A stretch of 64,000 nt of DNA, from positions 186,001-250,000 of the forward strand of contig JALHMI010000013.1 of assembly GCA_022844125.1 (NCBI GenBank), in the 5' to 3' direction. The notes under the pieces were generated by a model that worked only from the letters and a program-made list of their open reading frames with translations, was not told the DNA's origin and searched no databases. Every line of letters starts with the position of its first letter. Position 1 is the first letter of the stretch. Source of the DNA: Pirellulales bacterium (lineage in GTDB: Bacteria > Planctomycetota > Planctomycetia > Pirellulales > PALSA-1355). The position numbers were made by a program, and so were the translations under genes. Below are positions 4,297-61,444 of the stretch, piece by piece.

Positions 4297-4752
4297 CGCC
4301 TGCGCTCCCGATGCCTGCGCGCAACACGACCATCAAACCGCTGAACCTAAGAACACGCGCTCGAGACTTGATCAGCCTCGGCCTACCTGATGCGTTTGAT
4401 GAGTGTTACTTACTGTCGCTCGCGGTTCATCCGCCTCGCGACGTTTCGTTGTCACCCGAGACGCCGATTGTACGGTCGCTAGCAACGCTGTCAAAGGCCC
4501 CGCGTGGCACCGCGCCGAGTTGCGCTTGGTGCGAGTGCGTCGGCTGCCGCAAATCGCCGAGAAATGTTTTGGTCGCGTGAGCGCAAGTCGCGCTCGAAAA
4601 ATTTTTCGCACTCAATTTTCGCGCGTGGAAAACCTGTTCGCGCGCCGCAGCGAAGCGCACAGTGGGCCGCGCAAGCCAAAGTGAGAACGAGACTTGCGCG
4701 CGCCGCGAGATTTCCGCGGGCTCAATGCTCGTGTTTCTCCGCTGCGGGGCGC
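4297..4752. other. 456-bp gene-free region upstream of dnaA
   Basis: No credible gene is seen. The region must carry the dnaA promoter (minus strand). It holds a perfect 14-bp palindrome CGAAAAATTTTTCG (4595-4608) in an AT-rich patch followed by CTCAATTTTC, flanked by many CGCG/GCGC steps. One 7/9 match to a DnaA box (CGTGGAAAA, 4624-4632) lies just beyond. A single weak box is not enough to call an origin. DnaA autoregulation is possible but unproved. Confidence 0.4.
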
Positions 4753-5658: not shown

Positions 5659-5671
5659 ACGGAAGGAAAGT

Positions 5672-5699
5672 TTGGCAATCCTGCGTCGACTGTTATGTT
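5672..5699 (+). promoter_or_regulatory. candidate sigma-70-type promoter for the PDZ gene
   Basis: TTGGCA (5672-5677, 5/6 match to the -35) and TATGTT (5694-5699, 4/6 match to the -10) are separated by 16 bp, in the 88-bp space between the divergent GNAT and PDZ genes. The -10 ends 47 nt before the PDZ start codon. Prediction by eye only. Confidence 0.35.
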
Positions 5700-5746
5700 A
5701 ATAGAGGCGATTGTTGCTTGCTCGCTTCGCAAATCAGGTGGCTTCC

Positions 5747-6742
5747 ATGATTCGCATCCTGTTGCCGGCCATGACGATGATCGTGTCCCTCCTGCTCGCC
5801 GCGTCCCCGGCCCAGGCCCAACCCATTCTAAAACGCGTCGAGGAAATGCTGCGCGATCAGTTGGGCGGCGCGCGACCGGTCGACGCTGCCGCCGAACGAG
5901 GATACCTGGGTATGATCGGCGATGATACGCCCGATGGCACGGGGGTCGTCGTACTCGAAGTCTATCCCGGTCAGCCGGCAGTTCAGGGGGGGCTCGCAGC
6001 GGGCGACGTCATCACCTCGGTCGATGGCCGGCAGATTCGCACGATGGATGAGCTCGTGACAGCCGCGCTCGACAAGCCCGTGGGAACGAAGCTGGCCATG
6101 ACCATCAGCCGCGACGGAGAAGCCCGTAAGCTGCAGATCACCTTGGGACGGCGCCCTGCGGAACCGGGCGCCCCGGCCAATGAGCTGCCGGCTCCGGCTG
6201 CGATGCCCAATCTGGTTCCGCCCAGTGGGCCGCGCCTTGGCGTTCGCAGCGTGGCCGTGACGCCGGACGTGCAACAACAGCACAATCTGGCGGAAGCGGC
6301 CGGAGCGCATGTGATTCACGTGGCGCCGGACTCTCCGGCAGCGAAAGCGAACGTGCCGCTGGGAGCGGTGATCACGGCCGTCGACAAGTTTCCGATCAAG
6401 TCGCCCGAGGAACTGGCAGACGTGATTCGCAGCTCCAGCACCCCCACGGTCGAACTGACGTATGTTCATGCAGGCCGAACGCAGCGGGTGACCGCTGATC
6501 TGGGGCAAGCGGCCGACGCGCCGCCGGCACTCGTGGAAACACAAGCCCGCAAGGCTCAAGGTCCGGCGCTCGTTGCTCCGAACAATCCATCATCAACGCC
6601 GGCGGCTACGACGACGCCACCACCTCCGCAGCCAAATCCGCCGACGCCCGCTGCCAAGGATCGGCTGGATGAACTGCTCGATCGTATTGAAGCGCTCGAA
6701 CGTCGCCTCGAGGCGATCGAGACCAGGCAGAGTAGTCCATAG
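5747..6742 (+). CDS. exported two-PDZ-domain protein without a protease domain
   Basis: 331-residue protein. A signal peptide (MIRILLPAMTMIVSLLLAASPAQAQ) is followed by two PDZ domains, the first containing LAAGDVITSVDGRQI and the second VPLGAVITAVDKFPI. A Pro/Thr-rich linker follows, and a C-terminal coiled coil (DRLDELLDRIEALERRLEAIE) that could oligomerise it. There is no trypsin-like catalytic domain, so it is not DegP/HtrA; it is more likely a periplasmic scaffold or adaptor. The ATG at 5747 was chosen because AGGTGG (5736-5741) is 5 nt upstream and the signal peptide starts there. It ends 12 bp before the convergent next gene. Confidence 0.85.
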   Translation: MIRILLPAMTMIVSLLLAASPAQAQPILKRVEEMLRDQLGGARPVDAAAERGYLGMIGDDTPDGTGVVVLEVYPGQPAVQGGLAAGDVITSVDGRQIRTMDELVTAALDKPVGTKLAMTISRDGEARKLQITLGRRPAEPGAPANELPAPAAMPNLVPPSGPRLGVRSVAVTPDVQQQHNLAEAAGAHVIHVAPDSPAAKANVPLGAVITAVDKFPIKSPEELADVIRSSSTPTVELTYVHAGRTQRVTADLGQAADAPPALVETQARKAQGPALVAPNNPSSTPAATTTPPPPQPNPPTPAAKDRLDELLDRIEALERRLEAIETRQSSP

Positions 6743-6754
6743 CCGGACCGTGGC

Positions 6755-7450
6755 TCAAGACCGTTTGAGCGCCAACTCGACTGCAAAGCGCGAGTAAGGC
6801 TCGTCGGATCGCAGCACGCTCGCGCTTTGCACGCGCAGCTCGCTGACGGGCTTGCCATTCCATTTCACCTGGTAGAGCTGCAGGGCGGGGTCGCCGGTCG
6901 GCTGCGGCAGGAAGCTGTACTGCTGCATCACAAGCCCGACGATCTTGCGGGGATCGCCGGTCGTACCGCGAAAATGAATCAGCCTGACGCGCTGATCGTT
7001 GTCGAAGTAGTACGTGAGCGATCCGGCCAGGTCGTCGTAGCCCGTACCAGTGACGAGCGGGACGCGATAGCCTTGCATGTCGAGTTCCGCCAGGCCCACG
7101 GTCACGCGAGGCCAGCGCATCATGATCCATTGAGGCGTGGCGTTGAAGTTGATCACATCCGACAGGTTCTGTGCGGCATAACCTTCGACCGGCAGCTTGC
7201 TGGGCTGATGCGCTCCCCCCAGCGAATGACCGGCCAGCGAGGCGTGAATGCCGGGATCGTGCGCGACGCTCGCCGAGGACAGATCTGCCGGAGCGGCCGG
7301 ATTGGCCGGCGCCGAAGTCGTCATGGATGAAACCTTCGACTTGATCGTCGTCCACCACTCGGAGCCGGTGGACATGACGTACGGCACGACCACCGCGCTG
7401 AGCATCACGCCAGAAAACATGAATTTTCGCAACATGGCCGGCATAGGCAT
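6755..7450 (-). CDS. membrane-anchored protein of unknown function
   Basis: Up to 231 residues. An N-terminal hydrophobic segment (FMFSGVMLSAVVVPYVM) acts as anchor or uncleaved signal, then an Ala/Pro/Ser-rich linker. A globular part follows, with features such as NFNATPQWIMMRWPRV and LTYYFDNDQRVRLIHFRG; the latter reads like a beta-sheet domain. I do not recognise a characterised family; it resembles hypothetical proteins of planctomycetes. Start is uncertain: ATG codons lie at 7450, 7444 and 7435 and none has a clear ribosome-binding site, so 7450 is a compromise. It is a single gene, convergent with the PDZ gene. Confidence 0.65.
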   Translation of the reverse strand: MPMPAMLRKFMFSGVMLSAVVVPYVMSTGSEWWTTIKSKVSSMTTSAPANPAAPADLSSASVAHDPGIHASLAGHSLGGAHQPSKLPVEGYAAQNLSDVINFNATPQWIMMRWPRVTVGLAELDMQGYRVPLVTGTGYDDLAGSLTYYFDNDQRVRLIHFRGTTGDPRKIVGLVMQQYSFLPQPTGDPALQLYQVKWNGKPVSELRVQSASVLRSDEPYSRFAVELALKRS

Positions 7451-47591: not shown

Positions 47592-48641
47592 ATGGCCGAA
47601 AAGAAAAAGTTGTCCGTAGCCGAGATTCTGGCTGCGGCTCGTAAACAAGATAGTGGTGGGGCCGCGGCAGATAAACCTGCCAGCGAGCCGGCGCCCGAGG
47701 CCGCTGCGCCACAGGCTCCGGCCGCGCCGCAGCCATCGGCCGCGAAGCCAAAGCCTGCAGCCAAGCCGGGCGGAGCACGCATGAGCGTCGCCGAGATGAT
47801 GGCGGCAGCTCGCGCTGAAAAGGCCGCCGGCGCCGCCGCTCCGAAGCCTGCTGCCGAAGCAGTTCCCAAGCCCGCGCCTGCCAAGAAAGAGCCCGTCGCC
47901 AAGAAAGAGACTGTGCCGGCTGAGCCCGCCGAGCCTAAAGACACCAGCAGCATTCTGGCTGCCGCGCGAAGCGCGACTAAGCCGGGCCCCATGAGCAAGG
48001 CCGAAGCGGCCGCGAAAGCTCCAGCCGCCAAGGCCGCTGCCCCGGCGAAGCCGAAGATCGTCGTGCCGCCGATGCCGGCCAAGCCAGACTACGCCAAGCC
48101 CAAGGCGAAGTCGGCCGCCGAGGCGGCAACCGATCGTCGCAGCTTCCTGACGACCGTTATGCTCGGTTCATTCCTGGGCATTGGCTTCACGTCGCTGGCG
48201 ACCACGTTCGGACTCTGGACGCTCGGCGTCGCCCGCTTCATGTTCCCGAACGTGCTGATGGAACCGCCGAGCCAGTTCAAGGTCGGCTTTCCGAGCAACT
48301 TCGCGCCGGGGCAAGTCGAGACGAAGTTCATCGCCCAGTTCGGCGTGTGGATCGTCAATTTCGAATACAACGGTCAGGCGGAAATCTATGCGTTGCGCTC
48401 GGTCTGCACGCATTTGGGTTGCACGCCCAACTGGCTGGAAGGCGAGCAGAAATTCAAGTGTCCCTGCCACGGCAGCGGATTCTACAAAGACGGCATCAAC
48501 TTCGAGGGACCGGCTCCCCGGCCACTCGAACGGTATGCCATTCGGGTCGCCGATGACGGCCAGTTGGAAGTCGACAAGAGCCGCCTCTTTCAGGAAGAAC
48601 TTGGGCAGTGGAACGATCCTGCTTCGTTCGTCGCGGTCTAG
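47592..48641 (+). CDS. Rieske iron-sulfur protein with long repetitive N-terminal extension
   Basis: 349 residues. The [2Fe-2S] motifs CTHLGC (272-277) and CPCHGSGF (290-297) are complete, so it should pass electrons from quinol at the Qo site. A twin-arginine signal (TDRRSFL, 180-186) and helix (to about 213) precede the Rieske domain. Before that lie 180 Ala/Pro/Lys-rich residues, normally absent, which hold three copies of a short motif: LSVAEILAAAR (7-17), MSVAEMMAAAR (64-74) and TSSILAAAR (118-126). This part should stay cytoplasmic. ATG at 47592. First gene of the respiratory operon; cytochrome b follows after 197 bp. Confidence 0.93.
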   Translation: MAEKKKLSVAEILAAARKQDSGGAAADKPASEPAPEAAAPQAPAAPQPSAAKPKPAAKPGGARMSVAEMMAAARAEKAAGAAAPKPAAEAVPKPAPAKKEPVAKKETVPAEPAEPKDTSSILAAARSATKPGPMSKAEAAAKAPAAKAAAPAKPKIVVPPMPAKPDYAKPKAKSAAEAATDRRSFLTTVMLGSFLGIGFTSLATTFGLWTLGVARFMFPNVLMEPPSQFKVGFPSNFAPGQVETKFIAQFGVWIVNFEYNGQAEIYALRSVCTHLGCTPNWLEGEQKFKCPCHGSGFYKDGINFEGPAPRPLERYAIRVADDGQLEVDKSRLFQEELGQWNDPASFVAV

Positions 48642-48838: not shown

Positions 48839-49612
48839 ATGTCCATTGGTGAAATGATCCGCGAGTCGCAGGTGTGGAAGAGCATCTTCCGTCACCCCAT
48901 GCCGCAGGATCGCCGCAATCGCATTGTGGTGATGCTGACGAACTTCTTCCTGCACTTGCATCCCGTGTCGATCAAGAAGCAGGGCATCGCCCTCAGCTAT
49001 ACCTGGTGCATGGGCGGCGTGACGTTCTTCCTGTTCCTGGTCGAGACCGTCACTGGCGTGCTCCTGATGTTCTACTACCGGCCGACGCTGGAGTGGGCCT
49101 ACAACGACATTCTCGCCTTGCGCGACGTTACCTCGCTGGGCATCTTGCGCGAGGTGCATCGCTGGGGCGCTCACGCGATGGTGATTACCGTCTGGCTCCA
49201 CATGTACCGCGTGTTTTTGACGGGTAGTTATAAACCCCCGCGCGAATTCAACTGGGTCATCGGGGTGATCCTGCTACTGCTAACCCTGCTTTTATCTTTC
49301 ACCGGCTACCTGTTGCCCTGGGATCAGCTCGCGATCTGGGCCATCACGGTCGGTTCGAATATGGCCCGGGCCACGCCCATTTTGGGTCACGAGGGTCCCG
49401 GCCAACAGCTCCTGAATATTCAGGGGATCGACATGATCACCAACGCCTCGGACGCGCGGTTTGCCCTGTTGGGTGCGCGGTTCGTCGGCGAAGAGACTTT
49501 GAATCGTTTTTATATTTTGCACTGCATCGCCATACCCTTGGGTGTGGCGCTGCTGCTGGCGATCCATTTCTGGCGTGTGCGCAAGGATGGCGGCATCAGC
49601 GGACCGCTGTAA
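48839..49612 (+). CDS. cytochrome b (b6-type, N-terminal half)
   Basis: 257 residues, four helices. Quinol oxidation and reduction core of the bc complex in the inner membrane. Heme ligands are in [11 protein letters not shown] and WLHMYRVF on one helix (His pair with 13 residues between) and in [11 protein letters not shown] and LLAIHFWR on another (14 between). The 14-residue spacing is the cytochrome b6 pattern. Cys57 in SYTWCMGG aligns by context with the b6 cysteine that binds heme ci. The Qo-side helix has [11 protein letters not shown]. The C-terminal half is on a separate gene, as in b6f. Ribosome-binding site weak (AAGG). Confidence 0.93.
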
Positions 49613-49677: not shown

Positions 49678-51000
49678 ATGCACGGTGTATCGGAAGCCGA
49701 CTTCCTGCGTGGTATCTCGCCGTTTCTGGGCGGGTTCTATCTGTTCCTCGGCATGGTCAACGGCATCTTTGCCTACCATCTGTGGCACAACCTGCACCGT
49801 ACGCGCGACGCCATTATTTGGATTGTCGTATCCATGTTTCTGGTGGTCATCGCCGCAGCGGCCATGGGGGGCAGTCCGCCGGGCCTGCCGCTGTCGCTCC
49901 GCAACTTTGCCAACTGGGCCACCGGGCCGGTCATTTACAGCGTAGGCACCACGGCGCTGCTGGTCGCGGCTTACCTGCTGCGCACCTGGCTCGTACGGCC
50001 GATGGTCGGCTGGTCGCTGCTGATGTTCTCGCTCGTGCTGCTTGGGTTTTCGATTGCCGAGCCGAACTTCGCGGCGATCGTTACCAAGCCGGACAACGTG
50101 CCGATCGTGGGCCTGGTGTTCCTGCTGGGTTTCTTTACCTGGATCGCAACCGCCAAGGCGGTCGAAAACGACCGCCGCGACGCGGAAGGCCTGCCACCGA
50201 CCGAGAAGCTCGACGACGAGAAGGTCCTGGTCTGGCCGGATCTGGTCTATACCGAGCTGATCTGCATGATCGCCCTGACCGCGTTTCTCGTGGTCTGGGC
50301 CATCGCCCTGCAAGCTCCGCTGGAAGAACCCGCCTCGAGCGTGAAGACGCCGAACCCGTCGAAGGCTCCCTGGTACTTCCTCGGCCTGCAGGAAATGCTG
50401 GTCTACTACGACCCGTGGATGGCGGGCGTGGTGCTGCCGAGCCTGGTGCTCGTGGGCCTGGCCGCAATCCCGTACCTCGACTTCAACAAGAAGGGGAACG
50501 GCTACTACACAATCAACCAGCGCAAATTCGCTTACCTCGTGTTCCAGTTCGGATTCCTTGAACTGTGGATCACGCTGATCATTCTGGGCACGTTTTTCCG
50601 CGGTCCGAACTGGAACATCTTCGGCCCGTTCGAGTACTGGGATCCGCACAAGGTGCTCGCGCTCAATAACGTCGATCTGTCGCAGTACTTCTGGATCATG
50701 TTCATGGGGCAGTCGCTTCCCAAGGCGCCGCCCGATGCGACGCTTATCCAGCAACTCGGGACGATCCTGCTGCGCGAATGGCTGGGGATCGTGCTGGTAC
50801 TGGCCTACTTCATCGCGCTACCGCCATTGATGGCGACCACGATCTTCCGCGGGTTCTTCGCCAAGATGGGCTTCATCCGCTTCATGCTGATGGCGAACCT
50901 GCTGCTGTTCATGGCCTCGCTCCCGATCAAGATGGTGCTTCGCTGGACGGTGAACCTCAAGTACATCATCTCGATTCCCGAATTCTTCCTGAACTTCTAA
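49678..51000 (+). CDS. extended subunit-IV-like cytochrome b C-terminal protein (10 TM)
   Basis: 440 residues with about ten predicted helices. The C-terminal half, from YTELICMIALTAFLVVWAIAL on, is the subunit-IV/PetD part of cytochrome b. The Qo loop is KAPWYFLGLQEML, where APWY replaces the common PEWY; variants of this motif are associated with low-potential quinols such as menaquinone. The N-terminal 190 residues add about five helices (FLGGFYLFLGMVNGIFAYH, AIIWIVVSMFLVVIAAAAM and others) not present in PetD (about 160 residues). It lies 65 bp after the b6-type gene and 43 bp before the giant cytochrome gene. Confidence 0.85.
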   Translation: MHGVSEADFLRGISPFLGGFYLFLGMVNGIFAYHLWHNLHRTRDAIIWIVVSMFLVVIAAAAMGGSPPGLPLSLRNFANWATGPVIYSVGTTALLVAAYLLRTWLVRPMVGWSLLMFSLVLLGFSIAEPNFAAIVTKPDNVPIVGLVFLLGFFTWIATAKAVENDRRDAEGLPPTEKLDDEKVLVWPDLVYTELICMIALTAFLVVWAIALQAPLEEPASSVKTPNPSKAPWYFLGLQEMLVYYDPWMAGVVLPSLVLVGLAAIPYLDFNKKGNGYYTINQRKFAYLVFQFGFLELWITLIILGTFFRGPNWNIFGPFEYWDPHKVLALNNVDLSQYFWIMFMGQSLPKAPPDATLIQQLGTILLREWLGIVLVLAYFIALPPLMATTIFRGFFAKMGFIRFMLMANLLLFMASLPIKMVLRWTVNLKYIISIPEFFLNF

Positions 51001-51043: not shown

Positions 51044-54000
51044 ATGCCAGCTACCGAATCAACTTGGCGCAACCAGAAGCTGTTGCACATCGTCTTCGGC
51101 GTATCCGCCTTGGCGATGCTCGTCGGCACGATCTGGATGTTCGCCGCAGATCATCGCCGGGAGTGGAAGACCTACCAGGGTAAGTTTCGTTCGATCGAAG
51201 CCTGGTCGGCCCAAGCCCGCTTGAGCCAGTCCGAGACCGAGCAGTACGAGAAGGAAGTGGCCGACGCGCATGATGCCCTGAAAAAGGCGCAGCAAGATGT
51301 GCCCGCGGCCGACCTGGTCATCGCGTTCAACGATCGCGTTCGCGCCGAAGCGGCGGAGAAGAAGGACGCACAACCGGCGGACGTCAAGCCGGTGGATGAC
51401 GCGTACATCGCCCTCAAGGACGCTCAACCCGAGCAGCGGCCGGAGCTTCGCAAGGACTTCCGAGAGACGCTGCAGAAGTACATCGATGACGCCCGGTTCG
51501 TCGAGAACAATGCGACATCGGAGAAGAAGTTCATCTCGGCCGAGTTAGATGTAGCCCGCAGCGAGTACGAACTTGGCGTTGGCAACGCGTTGCCGCAAAG
51601 TCAGCTCGACACGATGCAGGCTCGCGTCACCGACTTGCGCGATCGGGTTGCCGCGGCGAACGACAAAATGCAGGATGCCGCCGCGTACCGCAAAGATCTC
51701 GAGCAAATCCTCAACGGCATGTTTGCCGATGAAGCTGCCGCTCGCAAGCGTCTCGACGAACTGCAGACGCAACGCAAGCAGCTCGAGCTCGCCTTATATG
51801 AGCGCGAAAACAAGGTCATGAACGAAGTGATCGGCCTGCCGATTATCGACGCGTTTGCGCCGAAGAAGCTCGACCAGATCTGGCTTCCTAATCTGACGAT
51901 CAACAACAACTTCCGCGACGTGCCGCGTTTCGATCGCTGCACGAACTGCCACCAGGGCATCGACCGCACCGTTGCCGGTTCCGCGATTGAGCCGGCTTAT
52001 CCCGCTGAAAAGGCACTGCAGGTCTCTCTGGAAACTCCGGCGGAGCGGCCCGAGGCTCTCGACCAGAAGCCCGCTGATGGTGAGGAGCTTGCCAAGTTTT
52101 ATAGCGATCAACTTCACGCCATCTACGGTATCCGGCTGGCTCAACAAGGACTGATTGAAGAGAACGAAGCCGTGATCAGCGTCGTGCGCCCCGAATCGCT
52201 CGCTGCAAAAGCGGGTCTGCAAGTCGGCGATACGATTCTGGAAGTCGGCGGCGGCAAACTTCGCGGCAAGAATGAAGCCTATAACTACCTGATCGAATCG
52301 GCCCAATGGGGTCAGCCGCTTGCGCTCCAGATCCGCCGAGGTCTGCCGCACCCGTTTGCCTCGCACCCGCGCCTCGATCTGTTCGTCGGCTCGCTCAGCC
52401 CTCATACCATGGCCGGCGTAGGCTGCACGATCTGTCACGACGGGCAGGGGAGCGCAACCAGCTTCAAGTGGGCTTCACACTCGCCGAATGATCCGCTCGA
52501 TGCGGAGCGCTGGAAGCAGGAGTACGGCTGGTTCGACAACCATCACTGGATCTTTCCGATGTACCCCAAGCGGTTCTCGGAAAGCCTTTGTCTGAAGTGT
52601 CATCACGACGTCGTCGAGCTTCAGCCCAGCGCTCGGTTCCCCGAGCCGCCCGCGCCGAAGCTGGTGGCAGGCTTCAATCTGATTAAGGACGTCGGCTGCT
52701 TCGGCTGCCACGAAATCAACGGCTACGATGGCCCGAACCGCCGCATCGGACCCGATCTGCGTGCCGAGCCCAATTACTCTCCAGCCGCGCAAGGTCTCCT
52801 GGCCACCGGCGGCCTGAACGACCAGCAGCAGGAGTGGGCCAAGCAGGTGATTGCCGAGCCCGATCAGGCCGCCCCGCGTCACTCGCTGATGCAGTCGCTC
52901 AACGACGCCGAAGAGCTGCCGGGCGATCCAATGGTGACCCGTCGACTCGTGAACGTGCTGGCCGACGTCGAGACGCCCGGCAAGCTGCGGAAAGTGGGCC
53001 CCAGCCTGCGTCACGTTGCCAGCAAGCTCGACTTCGACTTTCTGTACTCGTGGATTCGCGAGCCGAAGGACTTCCGACCTTCGACCAAGATGCCTCAGTT
53101 CTTCGGTCTGTGGGACGCGCTCGATCCGCACAGTCTCGATATTTCCAAGAAGTTTGAGCCGGCTGAAATTCGCGGCATGACCGAGTTCCTGCTTTCGGGC
53201 AGCCAACCGTTCGAGTACATCGAGCCGGCCCAGGGAGCGGAAGCCGCCAGCGCCGAGCGCGGCAAGCTGGCCTTTGAAGTGCGCTGCCTGGCGTGCCACA
53301 AACAGGAGGCCTTTCCGCAAGCCGTGATGAATCAGGGCCCCGACCTTTCGCGGCTCGGTTCGAAGCTCGGCGCCGATCGCAATCCGAATGGGCCCAAGTG
53401 GCTCTACACCTGGCTGAAGAATCCCAGCGCGTATCATCCACGCACCTTAATGCCGAATACGATTCTCGATCCGGTAAAAGGCGTCGATGGCAAGACGACC
53501 GATCCGGCCGCGGATATCGCCGCCTTCCTGCTCGAAAGCAAAGGCTGGGAGCCCACCAACATTCCCGGCCGCGACCTGACGAAGGAAGAAGACGCCGCGC
53601 TCAACGAGCTCGCGCTTGAGCATTTGCAAAATACCTTCTCCAAGCGACAGGCCGACGAATTCCTCAAGACCGGTATTCCCGAACGGATGCGGGCCGATCT
53701 CAAGGGCGACGAGGTTGAACTGGTCGGCGACATGACGGTCGAAAAGAAGCTTCGCTATGTCGGCCGCCGCTCAATCAGCAAGTACGGCTGCTCCGGCTGC
53801 CACGACATTCCGAACTTCGAAGATGTGAAGCCGATCGGCACGGGTCTGGCCGACTGGGCGCGCAAGACGCCTGACAAGCTGGCGTTCGAGCAGATTGTCA
53901 AGTACATGGAAGAGGGACACGGCAAGCCGCACGCGCTCGAATACGCGGATAGCGACCCGCACGGAGTTGCCGCGACCGATGAGCGCATCGAAGAGGCCGA

Positions 54001-55447
54001 AACTCCGGGAGACGGCCATGGACACGGAATGGACTTCCTCAATTTGCCGCCGGAAATCGGCTACTTCATGGAAAAGCTGTTTGCCCACCAGCGCGAAGGC
54101 TTTATCTGGCAGAAGCTTCGCGAGCCGCGCAGCTACGACTTCGAAAAAACCCAGAACAAGTCGTACAACGAACGGCTGCGCATGCCGCTGTTCACTGTGC
54201 TCGATGACGCCCAGCGTGAGTCGGTGATCACCTTCGTGCTGGGTCTCGTCGCCGAGCCGCCGGCATCGCAGTACATATTCAAAGGTGACGAACGCCGCCG
54301 CGCAATCATCGCCGGCAATGAAGTCATCGAGAAGTACAACTGCATGGGCTGCCACACGCTCGAGATGGAGCAGTGGGATCTGGAATTCCCACCCGAGACA
54401 TTCGGCGAATCGGCCGAGATGGTGGACTATGACTTCCTCAAGCCGCATTTCACACCGCAACAGATCGAAGCGTCGACAAAGGTAAACGACCGCGGGATGC
54501 AAACGGCCAGCATCGTGGGGATGCCTGCCGTGAATCCCCAAGGCCAGTTGGTACGCATCGATGAAGACGGGGCTCCGATCGAGCCCGACGACACCGAGAC
54601 GCCCGCCTCGTACGTATTCACGCCTTGGGAGAATGTGCTTCTGGGTGGCAACGTCTGGCAAGAGGGCCTCCAGAACGTGATCATCCCCGAATCGGCAATC
54701 AAGAAGCGGTATGAGCCGGTCGGCGGGTATCTCGCGCGGCTTGCGTATCCGACCGTCGTGGCGGAAGAACAGAAGATCAATCCAAACGCCAAGCCTGATG
54801 AAGCCTGGGGCTGGTTGCCGCCGCCGCTGAAGGGCGAGGGCCGTAAAGTACAGACCGAGTGGCTACACAGCTTCCTGCTGGATCCGCACGAGATTCGGCC
54901 GGCGGCCGTACTGCGCATGCCGAAGTTCAACATGTCGAGCGATGAAGCCACGAAGCTCGTCAACTATTTCGCAGCCGTGGATGGCGTCGACTATCCGTAT
55001 GACTTCGATCCGCGCACGCGACAAGCTCATCTGGCTGCCGCCGAGTCGGAACATCCGCAGCGGATGGCTGACGCGCTGAAAATCGTCACCGACAACAACT
55101 TCTGCATCAAGTGCCACTTGCTGGGCGACTTCGCGCCCACGGGCGCCAATTCGGCGAAGGCCCCGCAGCTCAGCGAAGTGAGCCGCCGTTTGCGGCCCGA
55201 CTACGTGCTCGACTGGGTCGCCAATCCAAAGCGGATCTTGCCGTACACCGGTATGCCCGTGAATATTCCAGCAGACAAGCCGGTGAGCCAGGAGCTGTTC
55301 AAGGGAGACAGCCTGCAACAGCTTGAAGGAGTTGTTGATTTGCTGCTCAATTATGGCAAGTTCACCGAAAGCCAACTTTCGATCAAACCGATGATCAAGT
55401 CTCCGCCCCCGGCGGAAACGCCGCAGCCACAAGACGCGGCCCAATAA
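51044..55447 (+). CDS. giant octaheme cytochrome c with PDZ-like domain
   Basis: 1467 residues. An N-terminal helix (KLLHIVFGVSALAMLVGTIW) anchors it, with a long coiled coil at about 35-280. Eight CxxCH heme sites are seen, first Cys at residues 299, 461, 516, 552, 748, 916, 1100 and 1354. Between hemes 1 and 2 (about 365-440) is a PDZ-like domain (ENEAVISVVRPESLAAKAGL, VGDTILEVGGGKL). Repeated cytochrome-c-like units contain (R/K)xVGPxL and WI(R/K)xPK-type segments. It follows the cytochrome b genes directly, and no cytochrome c1 is encoded, so it is the likely electron acceptor from the Rieske protein. Function as c1 replacement is inference; heme count is direct. Confidence 0.88.
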   Translation: MPATESTWRNQKLLHIVFGVSALAMLVGTIWMFAADHRREWKTYQGKFRSIEAWSAQARLSQSETEQYEKEVADAHDALKKAQQDVPAADLVIAFNDRVRAEAAEKKDAQPADVKPVDDAYIALKDAQPEQRPELRKDFRETLQKYIDDARFVENNATSEKKFISAELDVARSEYELGVGNALPQSQLDTMQARVTDLRDRVAAANDKMQDAAAYRKDLEQILNGMFADEAAARKRLDELQTQRKQLELALYERENKVMNEVIGLPIIDAFAPKKLDQIWLPNLTINNNFRDVPRFDRCTNCHQGIDRTVAGSAIEPAYPAEKALQVSLETPAERPEALDQKPADGEELAKFYSDQLHAIYGIRLAQQGLIEENEAVISVVRPESLAAKAGLQVGDTILEVGGGKLRGKNEAYNYLIESAQWGQPLALQIRRGLPHPFASHPRLDLFVGSLSPHTMAGVGCTICHDGQGSATSFKWASHSPNDPLDAERWKQEYGWFDNHHWIFPMYPKRFSESLCLKCHHDVVELQPSARFPEPPAPKLVAGFNLIKDVGCFGCHEINGYDGPNRRIGPDLRAEPNYSPAAQGLLATGGLNDQQQEWAKQVIAEPDQAAPRHSLMQSLNDAEELPGDPMVTRRLVNVLADVETPGKLRKVGPSLRHVASKLDFDFLYSWIREPKDFRPSTKMPQFFGLWDALDPHSLDISKKFEPAEIRGMTEFLLSGSQPFEYIEPAQGAEAASAERGKLAFEVRCLACHKQEAFPQAVMNQGPDLSRLGSKLGADRNPNGPKWLYTWLKNPSAYHPRTLMPNTILDPVKGVDGKTTDPAADIAAFLLESKGWEPTNIPGRDLTKEEDAALNELALEHLQNTFSKRQADEFLKTGIPERMRADLKGDEVELVGDMTVEKKLRYVGRRSISKYGCSGCHDIPNFEDVKPIGTGLADWARKTPDKLAFEQIVKYMEEGHGKPHALEYADSDPHGVAATDERIEEAETPGDGHGHGMDFLNLPPEIGYFMEKLFAHQREGFIWQKLREPRSYDFEKTQNKSYNERLRMPLFTVLDDAQRESVITFVLGLVAEPPASQYIFKGDERRRAIIAGNEVIEKYNCMGCHTLEMEQWDLEFPPETFGESAEMVDYDFLKPHFTPQQIEASTKVNDRGMQTASIVGMPAVNPQGQLVRIDEDGAPIEPDDTETPASYVFTPWENVLLGGNVWQEGLQNVIIPESAIKKRYEPVGGYLARLAYPTVVAEEQKINPNAKPDEAWGWLPPPLKGEGRKVQTEWLHSFLLDPHEIRPAAVLRMPKFNMSSDEATKLVNYFAAVDGVDYPYDFDPRTRQAHLAAAESEHPQRMADALKIVTDNNFCIKCHLLGDFAPTGANSAKAPQLSEVSRRLRPDYVLDWVANPKRILPYTGMPVNIPADKPVSQELFKGDSLQQLEGVVDLLLNYGKFTESQLSIKPMIKSPPPAETPQPQDAAQ

Positions 55448-55465: not shown

Positions 55466-56383
55466 ATGATTAAGACCACACGTTTCGTATTTGCTTCCCT
55501 GTTCATGGCCGCTGCGGCCGCGTTCACCGGCTGTGGCCAGGCCGCCTCGCCTCCGCCGGGCGCCCCTGACAAGGCCGAAGCTCCGCAAATCAACCAGGGC
55601 GAGGAAACCGCACCCGCCGCCGATCAATCCTCGGCCAGTGTGACGCAACCGGTCTTCGAGGTTCGCACCGCCGCTGCCGATGGCGATTGGGGCACCCTGA
55701 AGGGCCGCATCGTTTTCGACGGCAAGGCTCCGGCCCCGGCACCGGTCGACACCAGCAAAGATGCAGCGTGCAAAACTCCGCTCACCACCGAGAATTTGCT
55801 GGTCTCGCCGGACGGCGGCATTCAGAACGCAGTCATTATGCTGCGGACGAAGAATCCGAAGGTCCATCCCGACTACGAAAAGACGGCCAGTGATGAAGTC
55901 GTGCTTGATAACAAGAACTGCCGCTTCGAGCCCCACGTGCAGGTCGTCCGCTTGTCGCAGACGCTGATGCTGAAGAACTCGGACCCGACCGGTCATAACA
56001 GCAACATCACGCCGATTCTGGGCACTCCGATCAATCCGGTGCTTGCCGCCGGTGGCGAGCCCGTGCCGTACAAGTTTACGGCGGAAGAAGCCATTCCCGT
56101 GAAAGTTGGCTGCAACATCCATCCCTGGATGGGCGCTTACGTTGTGGCACGCAAGGATCCCTACGCAGCCGTGACCGACAAAGACGGCAACTTTGTGATC
56201 GAAAACCTGCCCGCTGGCAAGGAACTCGAATTCCGCCTCTGGCAGGAAAATGCCGGCTACCTGAAGAACGCGGCGTTCAAGGGTGGCAAGGCCGATGCCC
56301 GTGGCACATTCAAGCTGAAGATCAAGCCGGGCGACAACAACCTGGGTGACATCAAGGTGCCCGCCTCGGTTTTCAAGAAGTAG
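55466..56383 (+). CDS. cupredoxin-like lipoprotein 1
   Basis: 305 residues. Lipoprotein signal with lipobox AFTGCG, so it is tethered to a membrane outside the cytoplasm. After a short linker, a cupredoxin-like domain shows LKNSDPTGHNSN and VKVGCNIHPWMGAYV, placing His, Cys, His and Met in the order of a type 1 copper site. A carboxypeptidase-regulatory-like end (KDGNFVIENLPAGKELEFRLW) follows. Electron transfer between the giant cytochrome and the oxidase is a reasonable guess; copper delivery is the alternative. GAGAGG lies about 9 nt before the ATG. A paralogue follows 71 bp downstream. Confidence 0.82.
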   Translation: MIKTTRFVFASLFMAAAAAFTGCGQAASPPPGAPDKAEAPQINQGEETAPAADQSSASVTQPVFEVRTAAADGDWGTLKGRIVFDGKAPAPAPVDTSKDAACKTPLTTENLLVSPDGGIQNAVIMLRTKNPKVHPDYEKTASDEVVLDNKNCRFEPHVQVVRLSQTLMLKNSDPTGHNSNITPILGTPINPVLAAGGEPVPYKFTAEEAIPVKVGCNIHPWMGAYVVARKDPYAAVTDKDGNFVIENLPAGKELEFRLWQENAGYLKNAAFKGGKADARGTFKLKIKPGDNNLGDIKVPASVFKK

Positions 56384-56454: not shown

Positions 56455-57363
56455 ATGTCCAAGAGCAACTTGTGTGGATGCGTGGGAATCGTTGCCCTGC
56501 TCGCGCTTGCGAGCAGCGGTTGCGGCCGCAGTGTTTCGGCCAGCCCCCGTCCGCAGTCGGCGGTCGCGGCCGATATCCGCAAGAACCTGTTGAGCGGCGC
56601 CAGCACCGAGGGTGGCGAAGAAGCCGTCGCGGCAGCCGGCACCGGCTGGGGAACGCTCCGCGGCAAGTTCGTCTTTGCCGGCGATCCTCCCCAGCCCGGC
56701 GCGCTGGACGTCAATCGCGACACCGAGGTCTGCACCGCGGATGGCCCGCTCGTGGACAACTCCCTGCAAGTCGGTCCCGACAAGGGCCTGGCAAACGTCG
56801 TGGTCTATGCACGTGCCAAACGAGTGCATGAGTCGGCTGCCCCGTTGGAGAAGGAAAACGAGCTCGCGCCACTCGTGTTCGATCAGAAGCACTGCATGTT
56901 CCTCACGCACGTGATGGCCTGCCAGGTGAATCAGAAGATCGACGTCAAGAACAGCGATCCGGTCGGTCACAACACAAAGATCGATCCGCAGAAGGGTGTG
57001 CCGATCAACCCGATCCTGCCGGCGAATGCCGTGATTCCCTACACGCCGACGGCCGAGGAGGCGATTCCGGCACCCGTCTCGTGCAGCATTCACCCCTGGA
57101 TGCGGGCGTACCTCCTGCCGCGCAAGGACAAGTACTTTGCGGTCACGACCAGCGACGGCTCGTTCGAGATTCCCAACTTGCCGGCTGGCGAAGAAGTCGA
57201 GTTGCAAGTGTGGCACGAGCGAGGAGCCGGCGCCGGCGGCGCACTAGTCCTTCCGCGAAAGGATCTGAAATGGTCGAACCGCGGACGATTCGTCGTGAAG
57301 CTTAACGACGGCGAGACCACCGACTTGGGCAATCTCGAAGTTCAACCCAGCGCGATCAATTAG
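56455..57363 (+). CDS. cupredoxin-like lipoprotein 2
   Basis: 302 residues, paralogue of the preceding gene with the same order: lipobox ASSGCG, WGTLRGKFVFAGDPP, DVKNSDPVGHNTK, VSCSIHPWMRAYLLP and SFEIPNLPAGEEVELQVW. The putative copper ligands (His, Cys, His, Met) are kept, while the flanking sequence has diverged, including a charged insertion (HESAAPLEKENE) and a Gly/Ala-rich loop near the C-terminus. This suggests an old duplication with different partners. A purine-rich GGAGAGGGAAG precedes the ATG. Same operon. Confidence 0.82.
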   Translation: MSKSNLCGCVGIVALLALASSGCGRSVSASPRPQSAVAADIRKNLLSGASTEGGEEAVAAAGTGWGTLRGKFVFAGDPPQPGALDVNRDTEVCTADGPLVDNSLQVGPDKGLANVVVYARAKRVHESAAPLEKENELAPLVFDQKHCMFLTHVMACQVNQKIDVKNSDPVGHNTKIDPQKGVPINPILPANAVIPYTPTAEEAIPAPVSCSIHPWMRAYLLPRKDKYFAVTTSDGSFEIPNLPAGEEVELQVWHERGAGAGGALVLPRKDLKWSNRGRFVVKLNDGETTDLGNLEVQPSAIN

Positions 57364-57491
57364 CAGAACCGTGTCGGCGGCGTTCGCTCGTGATCGCTGC
57401 GAATGCCCTGAGCCGACGCGAGCCTTGAACCTGAAAAACAAAGAGAATCGTGCACAACTCCCAACCGGTAATCGACTGCCGGACTAAAGAC

Positions 57492-58745
57492 ATGAATCGG
57501 ACTCTTTTGAATTACTCGTGGTTCACCGGATGCGTGGCGCTGTTGTCGCTCTTGACCGGCTGTGGTCAGGGCTCGCCCCCGCAGTTTCGCCTGGACACGG
57601 TCGCGCTTGCCGAGAAGCAGATTCCGGCCGAACAGGTCCAGGACATTTCCAACATCCTGGAAGCCATGTTCGGCACTCCGGACGATCCGTTCGTGCTGCC
57701 GGAAACGGGACTCGATTTGAACCTGGTGAAGATGTCTGCTGGACCGGTCGCCAGCGATGAGTTCGGTCGCGAGACAGGACTCTATCGCCGGCATTGTGCC
57801 CACTGTCACGGCACCACGGGCGATGGAATGGGGCCCACCGCGATGCTGTTGAATCCCTATCCGCGTGATTACCGGCGCGGCATCTTCAAGTTCAAGAGCA
57901 CCGAACGCGCGGCTAAGCCGACGACGCACGACCTGGACTATATCGTCCGCGAAGGCGTGCAGGGAACCGCGATGCCTGCATTTGGCTTGCTTCCCGAAGT
58001 GCAGATCAAGTCGCTTGTCGAATACGTGAAGTACCTCAGCATGCGAGGGCAGGTCGAGATTCGCCTTTCTGATGCGCTGCTCGACTTAAGCGAAGACGAA
58101 AAGTTACAGCCGACTCGGGAACTGTTGGTTGACGAGATTCTCACGCCGATCGCCGAGAGCTGGTCGGCCGCGGGCGACAGCATCATTCCGACCGACGGCG
58201 ATAACGCCCGGCCCGAGATGGAGCTGGCGGCTTCGATCGCCAAGGGGCAAGAGCTGTTCTACAGCACCAAGGCCAACTGTGTGAAGTGTCACGGCTTCGG
58301 CGCCCTGGGTGACGGTCAAAGCACCGACTTCGACGACTGGAGCAAGGCCATCGATGAAGCGCACAAGAGCTTGAATGGCGATATTGCCACGCTCGACGAT
58401 CCAGGAGAGATGACCTCCGAAGAGAAAGCCGAGCTTGCGCAGCGCATCGCCCGATTGTCGCTCGCGCTTGATACCGATTCACTGCCACCGCGCACCGCCA
58501 AGCCGCGTAACCTGCGGCAAGGGATCTATCGTGGTGGCCGCGCTCCTTACGATCTGTATCGTCGGTTTTATGCCGGCATCAACGGCACGCCGATGCCGGG
58601 CGTCGGTCCGCCGTCGCCGGGCGCGCCGGGTACGCTCACCAACGACGAGATCTGGAATCTCGTGGATTACGTTCTATCGCTTCCGTACGATCCGATCAGC
58701 AGCCCCCCGCGCCAACAGCAGCATGTCAGCCGGGCCGCACTGTAA
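57492..58745 (+). CDS. diheme cytochrome c lipoprotein
   Basis: 417 residues. Lipobox LLTGCG after a hydrophobic leader, so it is lipid-anchored outside the cytoplasm. Two cytochrome c domains: the first with CAHCH in YRRHCAHCHGTTGDGMGPTA, the second with CVKCH in KANCVKCHGFGALGDGQST. Probable Met ligands are in GTAMPAFGLL and GTPMPGVGPP. It lies directly before coxB and is the best candidate for the immediate electron donor to the CuA site. The ATG at 57492 starts the lipoprotein leader; the frame is open to 57450. Confidence 0.9.
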   Translation: MNRTLLNYSWFTGCVALLSLLTGCGQGSPPQFRLDTVALAEKQIPAEQVQDISNILEAMFGTPDDPFVLPETGLDLNLVKMSAGPVASDEFGRETGLYRRHCAHCHGTTGDGMGPTAMLLNPYPRDYRRGIFKFKSTERAAKPTTHDLDYIVREGVQGTAMPAFGLLPEVQIKSLVEYVKYLSMRGQVEIRLSDALLDLSEDEKLQPTRELLVDEILTPIAESWSAAGDSIIPTDGDNARPEMELAASIAKGQELFYSTKANCVKCHGFGALGDGQSTDFDDWSKAIDEAHKSLNGDIATLDDPGEMTSEEKAELAQRIARLSLALDTDSLPPRTAKPRNLRQGIYRGGRAPYDLYRRFYAGINGTPMPGVGPPSPGAPGTLTNDEIWNLVDYVLSLPYDPISSPPRQQQHVSRAAL

Positions 58746-58850: not shown

Positions 58851-59663
58851 GTGGGTAAGTTTTGGGCCTTAGTGTTCTTGCTCGTGCCCGTTTTGGGCGT
58901 GGCCTGCTTTGTATTCGCGCCGGTCTATCAGCACTGGCTCCCGATCGATGTCTCGCAAGAGGGGCACACGATCGATCACTTGTTCTATTTCATTCTCTGG
59001 CTCACCGGCGTGGTGTTCGTTGGCACCGAAATCGCCCTCTTTTGGTTCATGCTTCGCTATGATGGCGCCGCGAACCGCAAAGTGAATTACACGCACGGCA
59101 GCCACAGCCTGGAAATCATCTGGACGATCATTCCCGCGGCGACTTTGCTGTTCATTGCGATCTACCAGATGAACGCCTGGGCCGACAGCAAGATTCGCAA
59201 CCCTGCGGCCGGCCCCGACGGCATCCTGGGCACGGCAGACGATATGCCGCCCACGGTGGAAGTGACCGCCCGGCAGTTCGAGTGGCGGTTGCGCTATCCC
59301 GGCAAGAACGGGATCCTGGGCGATCAGGACGACGTGCATGTGGTGAACGATCTGCGTCTGCCCGTGCAGGAAGAGATTCTGGTCGACCTGAAGAGCGCCG
59401 ACGTCCTGCACAGCTTCTTTCTGCCGAACCTGCGCGTGAAGCAGGATGCCGTACCGGGCATGAAGATTCCAGTCTGGTTCCGCGCTACCGAAAAGGGCTC
59501 CTTCGACATCGTCTGTGCGGAGCTGTGCGGTTGGGGACACTACAAAATGAAGGGCCGCGTCACGTTCGTCTCTCGCGGAGAGTTCGACGAGTGGCTCGAT
59601 GAAAAATATCGCGAGCAAACCGCCACGGTCGACTCGCAAGTGGCACAAGGGGACGTTGAATGA
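58851..59663 (+). CDS. coxB: cytochrome c oxidase subunit II
   Basis: 270 residues. Two N-terminal helices, the second leading to NYTHGSHSLEIIWTIIPAA, then a periplasmic cupredoxin domain. The binuclear CuA site is complete: His in DVLHSFFLPNLRVKQD and CAELCGWGHYKM with both Cys, Glu, His and Met. No cytochrome c domain is fused at the C-terminus, unlike caa3 oxidases. GTG start at 58851 with GGAG about 9 nt upstream. Its last 4 bp overlap coxA (ATGA), so the two are translationally coupled. Confidence 0.95.
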   Translation: MGKFWALVFLLVPVLGVACFVFAPVYQHWLPIDVSQEGHTIDHLFYFILWLTGVVFVGTEIALFWFMLRYDGAANRKVNYTHGSHSLEIIWTIIPAATLLFIAIYQMNAWADSKIRNPAAGPDGILGTADDMPPTVEVTARQFEWRLRYPGKNGILGDQDDVHVVNDLRLPVQEEILVDLKSADVLHSFFLPNLRVKQDAVPGMKIPVWFRATEKGSFDIVCAELCGWGHYKMKGRVTFVSRGEFDEWLDEKYREQTATVDSQVAQGDVE

Positions 59664-61444
59664 GCTCCATTACGGTCGGTCACGCACACGATGATCACGC
59701 CGCACACGCACACGCGGGTGGCTTTCTGAGCACCTATGTGTTCAGCAAGGATCACAAGATCATCGGCCTGCAGTTTTTGTTTTCGACGTTGATCTGGTTT
59801 CTGATCGGCGGGCTTTTGGCGCTGGGCATTCGCTGGCAAGTGGCGTGGCCCTGGGCCGAGATGCCTGTGATTGGCAAGATGCTGTTCGCCAACGAAGGTG
59901 GCCAGATCTCGCCCGAGTTTTACACGATCCTGTTCACCATGCACGCCACGGTGATGATCTTCTTCGTGATCATCCCGATCCTGGCCGGGGCCTTCGGCAA
60001 CTACCTGATTCCGCTGATGATCGGGGCCGACGATATGGCCTTCCCGACCATCAACATGCTCAGCTACTGGTTCATGTGGCCGGCGTTCATCGCCATCGGC
60101 TCCAGCTTCTTCGTCGAAGGGGGCGCCGCGAAAAGCGGCTGGACCAGCTATCCACCGCTTTCACTCACCGACTGGAACGGTCAGACGCTCTGGCTCATCG
60201 GGCTTACGCTGGTGGGCGTCTCGTCGATGATGGGTTCGGTCAACTACATGACCACGATCATCCAAATGCGTGCGCCGGGCATGACCATGTTCCGGCTGCC
60301 GATGACGATCTGGGGCATGTTCATCACGGCCATCCTGCAGGCCTTTGCGCTGCCGGTGCTCACCGCCGCCGGCTTCATGCAACTTACCGATCGCATGTTC
60401 GGCACCGGCTTTTTCATTCCGGAAGGCTGGAGCGTCAACAACGCCGCCGCGGCCTCGGGCGGTGGCCAGCCGCTGCTGTGGCAGCACTTGTTCTGGTTCT
60501 ATTCGCACCCGGCCGTATACATCATGATCCTGCCGGCGATGGGCATGGTTTCCGACATCATCGCCTGCTTCTCGCGCAAGCCGCTGTTCGGTTACAAGCC
60601 GATGGTGTACTCGATCGCCGGCATCGCGGGCCTGGGCTTCATCGTCTGGGGTCATCATATGTTCGTCTCGGGCATGAACCCCGCCCTGGGCATGACGTTC
60701 ATGGTGTCGACGATGATGATCGCGCTCCCCTCGGCCATTAAGACCTTCAACTGGCTGGGCACGGTCTGGGGCGGTCACATTCAGTTCACCACGCCGATGC
60801 TGTTCGCCCTGTCGTTCGTGGCCATGTTCATCATCGGCGGCCTGTCGGGCATCTTCATGGCTGCCACCCCGGTGGACATCTTCATTCACGACACCTACTT
60901 TATCGTCGCCCACTTCCACTACGTGCTGTTTGCTGGCACGGCGATGGGCGTGTTCGGCGCAATCTACTTCTGGTTCCCCAAAATGTTTGGCCGGATGATG
61001 AACGAGACGGCGGGGAAGATTCACTTCTTCTTCACGTTCCTGTTCCTCAACGGCACCTTCTTCACAATGCACATCCTGGGCGTGGTCGGGTTCCCGCGGC
61101 GACTCGCGGATCCGTACCACTACCAGACGTTCCACCACTTGCAGCCGCTGAACGAATTCATCACCTACTGTGCGATCGGCATGGTCGCCGTACAGGTGAT
61201 CTTCGCGGCGAACTTCATCCTGAGCATGTTCCTGGGGCCCAAGGCCGGCCGCAACCCGTGGCATGCCAACGGTCTGGAATGGCAAGCCCCTAGCCCGCCG
61301 GGCCACGGCAACTTCGACTTCCAGCCGGTGATCTACCGCGGCCCGTACGAGTACAACTCGCCCGAGTCGAGCAAGGATTACTATCCGCAGAACGAACCGC
61401 CCCCGGGCGCGCATCCCGAGCCGCCGTCGCCGCCGATTTATTAG
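59660..61444 (+). CDS. coxA: cytochrome c oxidase subunit I, A2-type
   Basis: 594 residues, at least 12 helices. Heme-copper oxidase core that reduces oxygen and pumps protons. Heme a and a3/CuB ligands are in TMHATVMIFFVI, FWFYSHPAVYIMIL, WGHHMFVSG and IVAHFHYVLF; the His-Tyr cross-link pair is in SHPAVY. Where A1 oxidases have GHPEVY with the D-channel Glu, this has YSHPAVY, the Tyr-Ser signature of the A2 subfamily. The N-terminus is His-rich (HAHDDHAAHAHAGG). The C-terminal 80 residues are Pro-rich and cytoplasmic. No subunit III is fused. Overlaps coxB by 4 bp. Confidence 0.96.
   Translation: MSSITVGHAHDDHAAHAHAGGFLSTYVFSKDHKIIGLQFLFSTLIWFLIGGLLALGIRWQVAWPWAEMPVIGKMLFANEGGQISPEFYTILFTMHATVMIFFVIIPILAGAFGNYLIPLMIGADDMAFPTINMLSYWFMWPAFIAIGSSFFVEGGAAKSGWTSYPPLSLTDWNGQTLWLIGLTLVGVSSMMGSVNYMTTIIQMRAPGMTMFRLPMTIWGMFITAILQAFALPVLTAAGFMQLTDRMFGTGFFIPEGWSVNNAAAASGGGQPLLWQHLFWFYSHPAVYIMILPAMGMVSDIIACFSRKPLFGYKPMVYSIAGIAGLGFIVWGHHMFVSGMNPALGMTFMVSTMMIALPSAIKTFNWLGTVWGGHIQFTTPMLFALSFVAMFIIGGLSGIFMAATPVDIFIHDTYFIVAHFHYVLFAGTAMGVFGAIYFWFPKMFGRMMNETAGKIHFFFTFLFLNGTFFTMHILGVVGFPRRLADPYHYQTFHHLQPLNEFITYCAIGMVAVQVIFAANFILSMFLGPKAGRNPWHANGLEWQAPSPPGHGNFDFQPVIYRGPYEYNSPESSKDYYPQNEPPPGAHPEPPSPPIY

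Follow-up and report, generated by a model that had tools for sequence, protein, structure and literature searches.

A PDZ-containing octaheme cytochrome c encoded with a b6f-type Rieske/cytochrome b complex in Pirellulales

What takes electrons from a Rieske/cytochrome b complex that has no cytochrome c1 gene beside it? The question is raised by a 64,000-nucleotide stretch of DNA from a Pirellulales bacterium (Planctomycetota; assembly GCA_022844125.1, contig JALHMI010000013.1, positions 186,001 to 250,000 of the forward strand), hereafter the window, in which an open reading frame (ORF) at positions 51044..55447 encodes a 1467-residue protein with eight CxxCH heme-attachment sites directly after split cytochrome b genes. 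An earlier note on this DNA had described a giant octaheme cytochrome c with an N-terminal anchor, a 250-residue coiled coil and a PDZ-like domain between hemes 1 and 2, which stood in for cytochrome c1 and could serve as an electron wire with the PDZ domain and coiled coil docking the oxidase. Our analysis favors reading the octaheme protein as a subunit of a b6f-like, menaquinol-oxidizing complex that wires electrons to downstream carriers and an oxidase, with the PDZ domain as an accessory docking module; we put the probability of this reading at roughly 0.72.

The Rieske/cytochrome b genes and the missing cytochrome c1

The octaheme gene is preceded on the same strand by genes for the iron-sulfur and cytochrome b subunits:

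47592..48641, plus strand: Rieske iron-sulfur subunit with an Ala/Pro-rich N-terminal extension (Pfam Rieske PF00355, 8.5e-10)
48839..49612, plus strand: N-terminal half of cytochrome b, b6-type (best solved match cytochrome b6, E 4e-43; NCBIfam ExtP)
49678..51000, plus strand: subunit IV-like C-terminal half of cytochrome b, enlarged, 440 amino acids (Cytochrom_B_C 4e-5; ExtQ 3.5e-16; b6f subunit IV 9e-5)
51044..55447, plus strand: octaheme c-type cytochrome subunit, 1467 amino acids (ATG start; eight CxxCH; homologues)

A b6-type half and a subunit IV-like half thus lie immediately upstream of the octaheme gene, as the earlier note had it. The nearest solved relatives of the N-terminal half are cytochromes b6 (E about 1e-43 to 1e-41), its C terminus, GISGPL, is the same as in b6, and its Cys57 falls opposite the heme c_n cysteine of b6 (WCMGG, compared with YCLGG in b6), an alignment that predicts attachment of this heme. 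PetC models score best with the Rieske protein; ExtP and ExtQ models score best with the two cytochrome b halves, yet below the cut-offs of those models. With an adjoining Rieske gene, a b6-like half, a separate subunit IV-like half and the heme c_n cysteine, the set can be assigned by its sequences to the b6f type. A profile search of the whole 6.44 Mb genome for cytochrome c1 (PF02167) gave no match, so that the absence noted in the window extends to the rest of the genome and the set would not belong to the canonical bc1 complexes. Together, the gene order and the absence of PF02167 support the proposal that the octaheme protein takes the place of cytochrome c1 or cytochrome f in the complex.

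In most other planctomycetes the subunit IV-like half has around 360 amino acids, approximately 80 fewer than here; by eye, the one in the window has several extra hydrophobic stretches at its N terminus, and the long form is shared by f4, a second family of the same class. The N terminus of the Rieske protein (47592-48100) contains short repeats, SVAE[IM][LM]AAAR or ILAAAR, with the motif at 47616 and 47787. Similar SVAE[IM][LM]AAAR repeats are found in many Pirellulales Rieske proteins and in some of those from f4, while the DNA pattern of the motif had no other occurrence in this genome. A possible role for the repeat is docking on the cytoplasmic side.

Anatomy of the octaheme protein

The CxxCH motif was found exactly eight times in the ORF, at residues 299, 461, 516, 552, 748, 916, 1100 and 1354, so that translation and motif count agree with the length and heme number first reported. 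The features of the protein outside the PDZ domain are as follows:

51074..51154, plus strand: N-terminal membrane helix, residues 11-37 (AlphaFold2 helix; hydrophobic stretch in the sequence)
51428..51805, plus strand: long antiparallel helical hairpin, residues 129-180 and 185-254 (AlphaFold2, predicted local distance difference test, pLDDT, 92)
51938..51952, plus strand: heme 1 CxxCH, residues 299-303 (invariant in the alignment)
52424..52438, plus strand: heme 2 CxxCH, residues 461-465 (motif and alignment)
52589..52603, plus strand: heme 3 CxxCH, residues 516-520 (motif and alignment)
52697..52711, plus strand: heme 4 CxxCH, residues 552-556 (motif and alignment)
53285..53299, plus strand: heme 5 CxxCH, residues 748-752, in a SoxX-like class I domain, 722-834 (motif, Pfam and fold match)
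53789..53803, plus strand: heme 6 CxxCH, residues 916-920 (motif and alignment)
54341..54355, plus strand: heme 7 CxxCH, residues 1100-1104 (motif and alignment)
55103..55117, plus strand: heme 8 CxxCH, residues 1354-1358 (motif and alignment)

AlphaFold2 produced a compact, confident model of residues 268-1467 (pLDDT 89.4; predicted template modeling score, pTM, 0.87). The N-terminal 331 residues (pLDDT 92) were modeled as a membrane helix followed by helices that end in a long hairpin. The helix at residues 11-37 lies over a hydrophobic stretch and agrees with the proposed anchor. Of the proposed 250-residue coiled coil, the long helices are present, but a series of helices closing with the hairpin 129-180/185-254, whose helices, as read from their order, probably pack antiparallel, is a better description of the region. 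Besides PDZ_6, a Pfam scan of the protein gave matches to class I cytochrome c, C7/c3-like and FixO-like models, and structure comparison of residues 722-834, the heme 5 domain, with SoxX (2c1d_B) gave a Z score of 12.2. A search of the genome with PF14522 gave no match, although hmmscan finds PF14522 in the octaheme ORF itself, so that this negative carries no weight.

Candidate heme ligands

We asked whether the hemes have conserved ligands. All 88 of 88 diverse octahemes share exactly eight invariant His or Met columns (three His, five Met) besides the histidines of the heme motifs, corresponding to H441, H454, H479, M683, M803, M1047, M1292 and M1404. Paired by chain order, hemes 1-3 would take the three His as distal ligands and hemes 4-8 the five Met. 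Since eight candidate distal ligands are invariant, all eight hemes look six-coordinate, and the lack of a heme with an open site argues for electron transfer rather than catalysis, in support of the electron wire suggested earlier. A catalytic role, for example as an HAO/NrfA-type enzyme that reduces nitrite or hydroxylamine with electrons from the quinol pool, would be in keeping with the number of hemes and with the HAO-like octaheme attached in the anammox R/b-3 complex (PMC12954380). We regard it as highly improbable: every heme has an invariant candidate distal ligand, all attachment motifs are CxxCH, and the models matched by the protein's domains are class I cytochrome c, C7/c3 and SoxX ones rather than HAO. 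The hallmark of HAO and NrfA, an open five-coordinate heme or a CxxCK motif, was sought in the octaheme protein and not found.

Distribution of the octaheme family in Planctomycetota

An octaheme search of 196 Planctomycetota genomes produced matches, some of them weak, in 136. Within Pirellulales, the order to which the window belongs, the match is much stronger. Forty loci from across the phylum were fetched for closer inspection, and 39 of the 40 octahemes contained exactly eight CxxCH motifs, with lengths of 945 to 1865 amino acids. Eight hemes and approximately 945-1865 amino acids are therefore normal for the family across the phylum, and the impression that the protein is of unusual size did not hold. 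The gene order Rieske, cytochrome b N-terminal half, cytochrome b C-terminal half, octaheme recurs in most of the 39 eight-heme loci, including anammox ones, so the octaheme is not peculiar to one genome.

Family f41 encodes hydrazine synthase and is therefore an anammox family. Its octahemes (L040, L042 and L046) are homologous to that of the window, and the eight CxxCH motifs are at homologous positions in both, in invariant alignment columns. In L040 a 566-residue pyridine-nucleotide oxidoreductase with 4Fe-4S domains (3541-5241) is encoded between the cytochrome b genes, an arrangement that matches the described Kuenenia Kustd1480-1485 complex. The earlier note had pointed to multiheme proteins next to Rieske/cytochrome b genes in anammox planctomycetes, and the likeness is closer than it claimed.

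A scan of named genomes, in which the best 80 of 421 relatives were all Pirellulales-like, included Adhaeretor mobilis, Bythopirellula, Pirellula, Rhodopirellula and many metagenome-assembled genomes. In nearly all Pirellulales loci with enough flanking sequence, the full cluster is kept in the order Rieske, cytochrome b N-terminal half, cytochrome b C-terminal half, octaheme, lipoprotein, lipoprotein, diheme cytochrome, CoxB, CoxA, CtaA, CtaB. Records titled 'Candidatus Kuenenia stuttgartiensis' (L108, L119, L130, L136, L139, L170 and L178) carry Pirellulales-type octahemes, along with the oxidase cluster where the flank allows, and the names of these metagenome-assembled genomes look wrong. 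A distant multiheme protein of 1224 amino acids with five CxxCH motifs and a weak octaheme match (L070, 4839-8513, genome G167, contig C1) was also seen; its host genome has a full octaheme as well.

The PDZ domain between hemes 1 and 2

The linker between the first two hemes contains the domain that distinguishes this protein from its anammox relatives:

52007..52357, plus strand: PDZ domain, residues ~322-438, between hemes 1 and 2 (Pfam PDZ_6; AlphaFold2 model; fold match)

Residues 377-419 match Pfam PDZ_6 with an E value of 1.2e-8, over the curated cut-off, and residues 322-438 of the AlphaFold2 model match the fold of Scribble PDZ1 (VIA-align Z 10.9, 2.7 A, 89 residues). Profile search and structure prediction thus both recovered the PDZ-like domain proposed from the sequence at this position. 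A PDZ_6 match was present in 30 of 31 aligned members of the order, and core residues, for example G362, A390 and D396, do not vary within the order set. The spacing between hemes 1 and 2 is ~150-200 residues in nearly all complete copies from the order, compared with 39-113 in most other planctomycetes, and the long heme 1-2 inserts found outside the order (L039, L055, L062 and L065) gave no match to the PDZ profile.

Within the Pirellulales clade, L240 (family f3, 3937-7362, minus strand) is without the PDZ domain; its heme 1-2 spacing is 46 and its N terminus is short, with the first heme at 135. The f3 members L035 and L242 have the PDZ domain and a shortened N-terminal region.

PDZ domains at other linkers in family f4

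PDZ domains were also found at different positions of the octahemes in family f4. Three members (L031, L036 and L037) have PDZ matches between hemes 5 and 6, two more (L032 and L033) have the same heme 5-6 spacing, and L034 has its PDZ match between hemes 6 and 7. Alignment around heme 6 places the heme 5-6 and heme 6-7 inserts on opposite sides of that heme. A survey of f4 in 150 genomes together with the fetched copies distinguished three states: insert absent (about 1230-1385 amino acids), present at heme 6-7, or present at heme 5-6. Pfam PDZ matches were obtained for the heme 6-7 segment of L188 (6.5e-10), the heme 5-6 segment of L233 (9.3e-17), and segments of L229 (5.9e-11) and L234 (3.1e-11); the heme 6-7 inserts of L199 and L200 had no Pfam PDZ match, that of L200 showing a weak rotamase match (PF13145, E 1e-3). 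The f4 domains look HtrA-like and mostly match PDZ_2 best, while the Pirellulales domains match PDZ_6 best. Further large inserts that are not PDZ domains occur in f4 (L200-L202 at heme 6-7 and heme 7-8; L215, L229 and L231 at heme 7-8), which hints that the inter-heme linkers are general insertion sites.

A quick tree of 74 octahemes over 796 core columns was produced with Shimodaira-Hasegawa-like approximate likelihood ratio test (SH-aLRT) support and without bootstrap, and insert states were taken from Pfam for the segments scanned with it and from linker spacing for the others. Pirellulales formed one clade (SH-aLRT 100), as did the octahemes with a heme 6-7 PDZ domain (99), and the heme 5-6 state requires at least three changes. 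Over the whole tree the insert states require eight changes, against a mean of 38 when shuffled. Since the domains differ in position and PDZ type and fall into separate clades, a PDZ domain was probably inserted independently at least three times, movement within the gene being a less likely alternative; within the heme 5-6 state the changes may be gains or losses.

Proposed electron path and downstream genes

Quinol would be oxidized at cytochrome b, and the Rieske cluster would hand one electron to the octaheme protein, which would sit where cytochrome c1 or f otherwise does. From there the electron would follow a fixed chain: hemes 1-3, each bis-His, and then five class I domains with His/Met hemes (4-8). 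The N-terminal membrane helix and hairpin would clamp the octaheme onto the Rieske/cytochrome b core, as suggested by the published AlphaFold3 model of Kustd1485, in which long helices wrap this core (PMC12954380). Since relatives without the PDZ domain keep an identical heme set, the domain would lie outside the wire, as an accessory docking module on an inter-heme linker that most likely holds a protein partner (a carrier, the oxidase, a neighboring complex or an envelope protein) near the complex. In this scheme the quinone type, the direction of electron flow, the pairing of ligands with hemes, the clamp and the docking role of the PDZ domain are all putative. Candidates for the exit of electrons are encoded directly downstream:

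55466..56383, plus strand: lipoprotein 1, predicted type 1 (blue) copper site H177/C216/H219/M222 (conserved ligands; amicyanin profile match 1.4e-5)
56455..57363, plus strand: lipoprotein 2, paralogue of lipoprotein 1 (homology, copper ligands, profile match)
57450..58745, plus strand: diheme cytochrome c lipoprotein (two CxxCH; Pfam Cytochrom_C 4.8e-18)
58851..59663, plus strand: CoxB, CuA subunit of an aa3 oxidase (Pfam COX2; TIGR02866 over cut-off)
59660..61444, plus strand: CoxA (Pfam COX1 5.9e-150)

Beyond CoxA are CtaA and then a CtaB-type protein, the latter assigned by sequence judgement. In the copper lipoproteins H177, C216, H219 and M222 are invariant or nearly so across homologues, and it is plausible that these proteins act as acceptors between the octaheme and CuA. 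The lipoproteins, diheme cytochrome and aa3 oxidase are likely to form the electron exit, with electrons leaving to the blue-copper lipoproteins, the diheme cytochrome or both, and then to CuA.

Weighing the role of the PDZ domain

Several observations weigh against a main respiratory wire with a peptide-binding PDZ domain. In the model, an extra helix (residues 346-361) precedes the YG(I/L/F) equivalent of the ligand loop, that is, it comes before the strand after the carboxylate-binding loop, and since this is the usual site of the ligand carboxylate, peptide binding may be altered or lost. The C-termini of co-encoded subunits in f4 showed no correlation with the presence of the PDZ domain, and for that reason we do not claim a PDZ ligand from the tails. 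The genome (G000) has two further cytochrome b genes, each adjoining a Rieske gene (contig C16, ~85.6 kb, L183; contig C2, ~121.5 kb, L184), so the octaheme complex may not be the main quinol:oxygen route. In the set on contig C2, cytochrome b carries a fused c-type heme site, and a diheme cytochrome and oxidase subunits are encoded alongside.

The earlier proposal that the PDZ domain and coiled coil dock the oxidase, with the PDZ domain bound to a peptide at the CoxB or CoxA C terminus and the octaheme serving as the built-in wire of a complex III-IV supercomplex, gains something from the cox genes, which nearly all Pirellulales keep within this cluster. There is also a precedent in other bacteria, where some supercomplexes, for example the mycobacterial bcc-aa3, work without a soluble carrier. 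However, in the Pirellulales comparison the CoxB tail varies and most CoxA proteins have His, not a hydrophobic residue, at the very end, and neither subunit shows a conserved PDZ-ligand motif. The f3 locus L035 keeps its PDZ domain without CoxA or CoxB in the cluster, octahemes without PDZ also adjoin cox genes (L038, L044 and L056), and the co-encoded copper and diheme carriers make direct contact unnecessary. The long N-terminal region, moreover, is present in anammox members with no aa3 gene nearby, and in the Kustd1485 model its helices are occupied with the Rieske/cytochrome b core. We consider oxidase docking quite improbable. Binding of a C-terminus within the same complex, such as the Rieske tail, could regulate movement of the Rieske head or assembly, and the Pirellulales Rieske tail, [VI]-x-[VA] (V or I at -2 in 61 of 62, V or A at the end in 61 of 62), resembles a class II PDZ ligand; the subunit IV tail is mostly LNF in the order, which would also suit a PDZ domain, compared with FNI outside it. 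Both tails are nonetheless hydrophobic and similar in relatives without PDZ, and in f4 the tails are unchanged with PDZ presence or site. The Rieske C-terminus in b6f and bc1 complexes is part of the folded head, which also speaks against such binding, and we think it unlikely.

The domain might instead be a passive insertion, exposed inter-heme linkers tolerating small periplasmic domains of which PDZ is a common and easily inserted one. Inserts other than PDZ do occur in the same linkers (L055, L062 and L065 at heme 1-2; the weak rotamase-like L200 at heme 6-7), and at least one Pirellulales member, L240, lacks the domain. Against this, PDZ recurs at three sites where other recognizable domains hardly do, it is kept in 30 of the 31 scanned members of the order, and its core residues are invariant there. 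Passive insertion therefore deserves serious notice but is, on balance, a minority possibility, and the accessory docking module on an electron-transferring octaheme is the reading that we prefer.

Relation to known complexes

The closest known system is the anammox R/b-2 complex (Kuenenia Kustd1480-1485), which shares the gene order, the b6-type cytochrome b, the subunit IV-like protein and an octaheme with N-terminal helices. It differs in that its cytochrome b halves, which directly adjoin in the window, are separated by a gene for an NAD(P) oxidoreductase, and in its octaheme of about 950 amino acids with neither a PDZ domain nor an adjacent aa3 oxidase, both of which the window has. Cytochrome b6f of cyanobacteria and chloroplasts shares the split cytochrome b, the GISGPL end, the heme c_n cysteine, a relative of subunit IV and a PetC-like Rieske protein, whereas the window has an unrelated octaheme instead of cytochrome f and a subunit IV enlarged to 440 amino acids. 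The Geobacter Ext cluster (ExtO Rieske, ExtP cytochrome b, ExtQ, ExtM/N/KL), in which multiheme cytochromes lie beside Rieske/cytochrome b genes (PMC5877670), shares the best-scoring ExtP and ExtQ and the accompanying multihemes; its cytochromes, however, are separate proteins with 4 to 12 hemes in a selenite and iron context, and neither this octaheme family nor a PDZ domain is reported there. MamP and MamE each carry both PDZ and c-type heme sites (PMC3971196), although with mini magnetochrome domains of 20 residues, in magnetosome iron chemistry, and unrelated to Rieske/cytochrome b complexes. That Rieske proteins may pass electrons to multiheme acceptors is a general proposal (Dibrova 2013, as cited in PMC5317091).

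Anammox bacteria are thus already known to have a Rieske/cytochrome b complex in which an octaheme replaces c1 or f; what is new is the PDZ domain in the octaheme and its repeated insertion at different linkers. A literature search with sparse coverage of subscription journals returned no description of a PDZ octaheme or of such repeated insertion, and no paper joining 'PDZ domain' with 'multiheme cytochrome'.

Implications

Planctomycetota are abundant and mostly aerobic degraders. To our knowledge, their main quinol-oxidizing complex has hardly been studied outside the anammox bacteria. Our results suggest that the octaheme complex is a standard form of complex III in the phylum, tied in Pirellulales to a fixed copper-carrier and aa3 oxidase cluster. 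Because PDZ domains were inserted repeatedly and at different places, it can be argued that docking to the octaheme subunit is useful, and the repeated insertion into one wire amounts to a natural experiment. It is tempting to speculate, as a tentative idea somewhat short of an even chance, that separate lineages repeatedly gained a PDZ domain in different linkers of the same wire as a peptide-gated docking platform that recruits acceptors or envelope proteins, which would be a case of convergent respiratory wiring.

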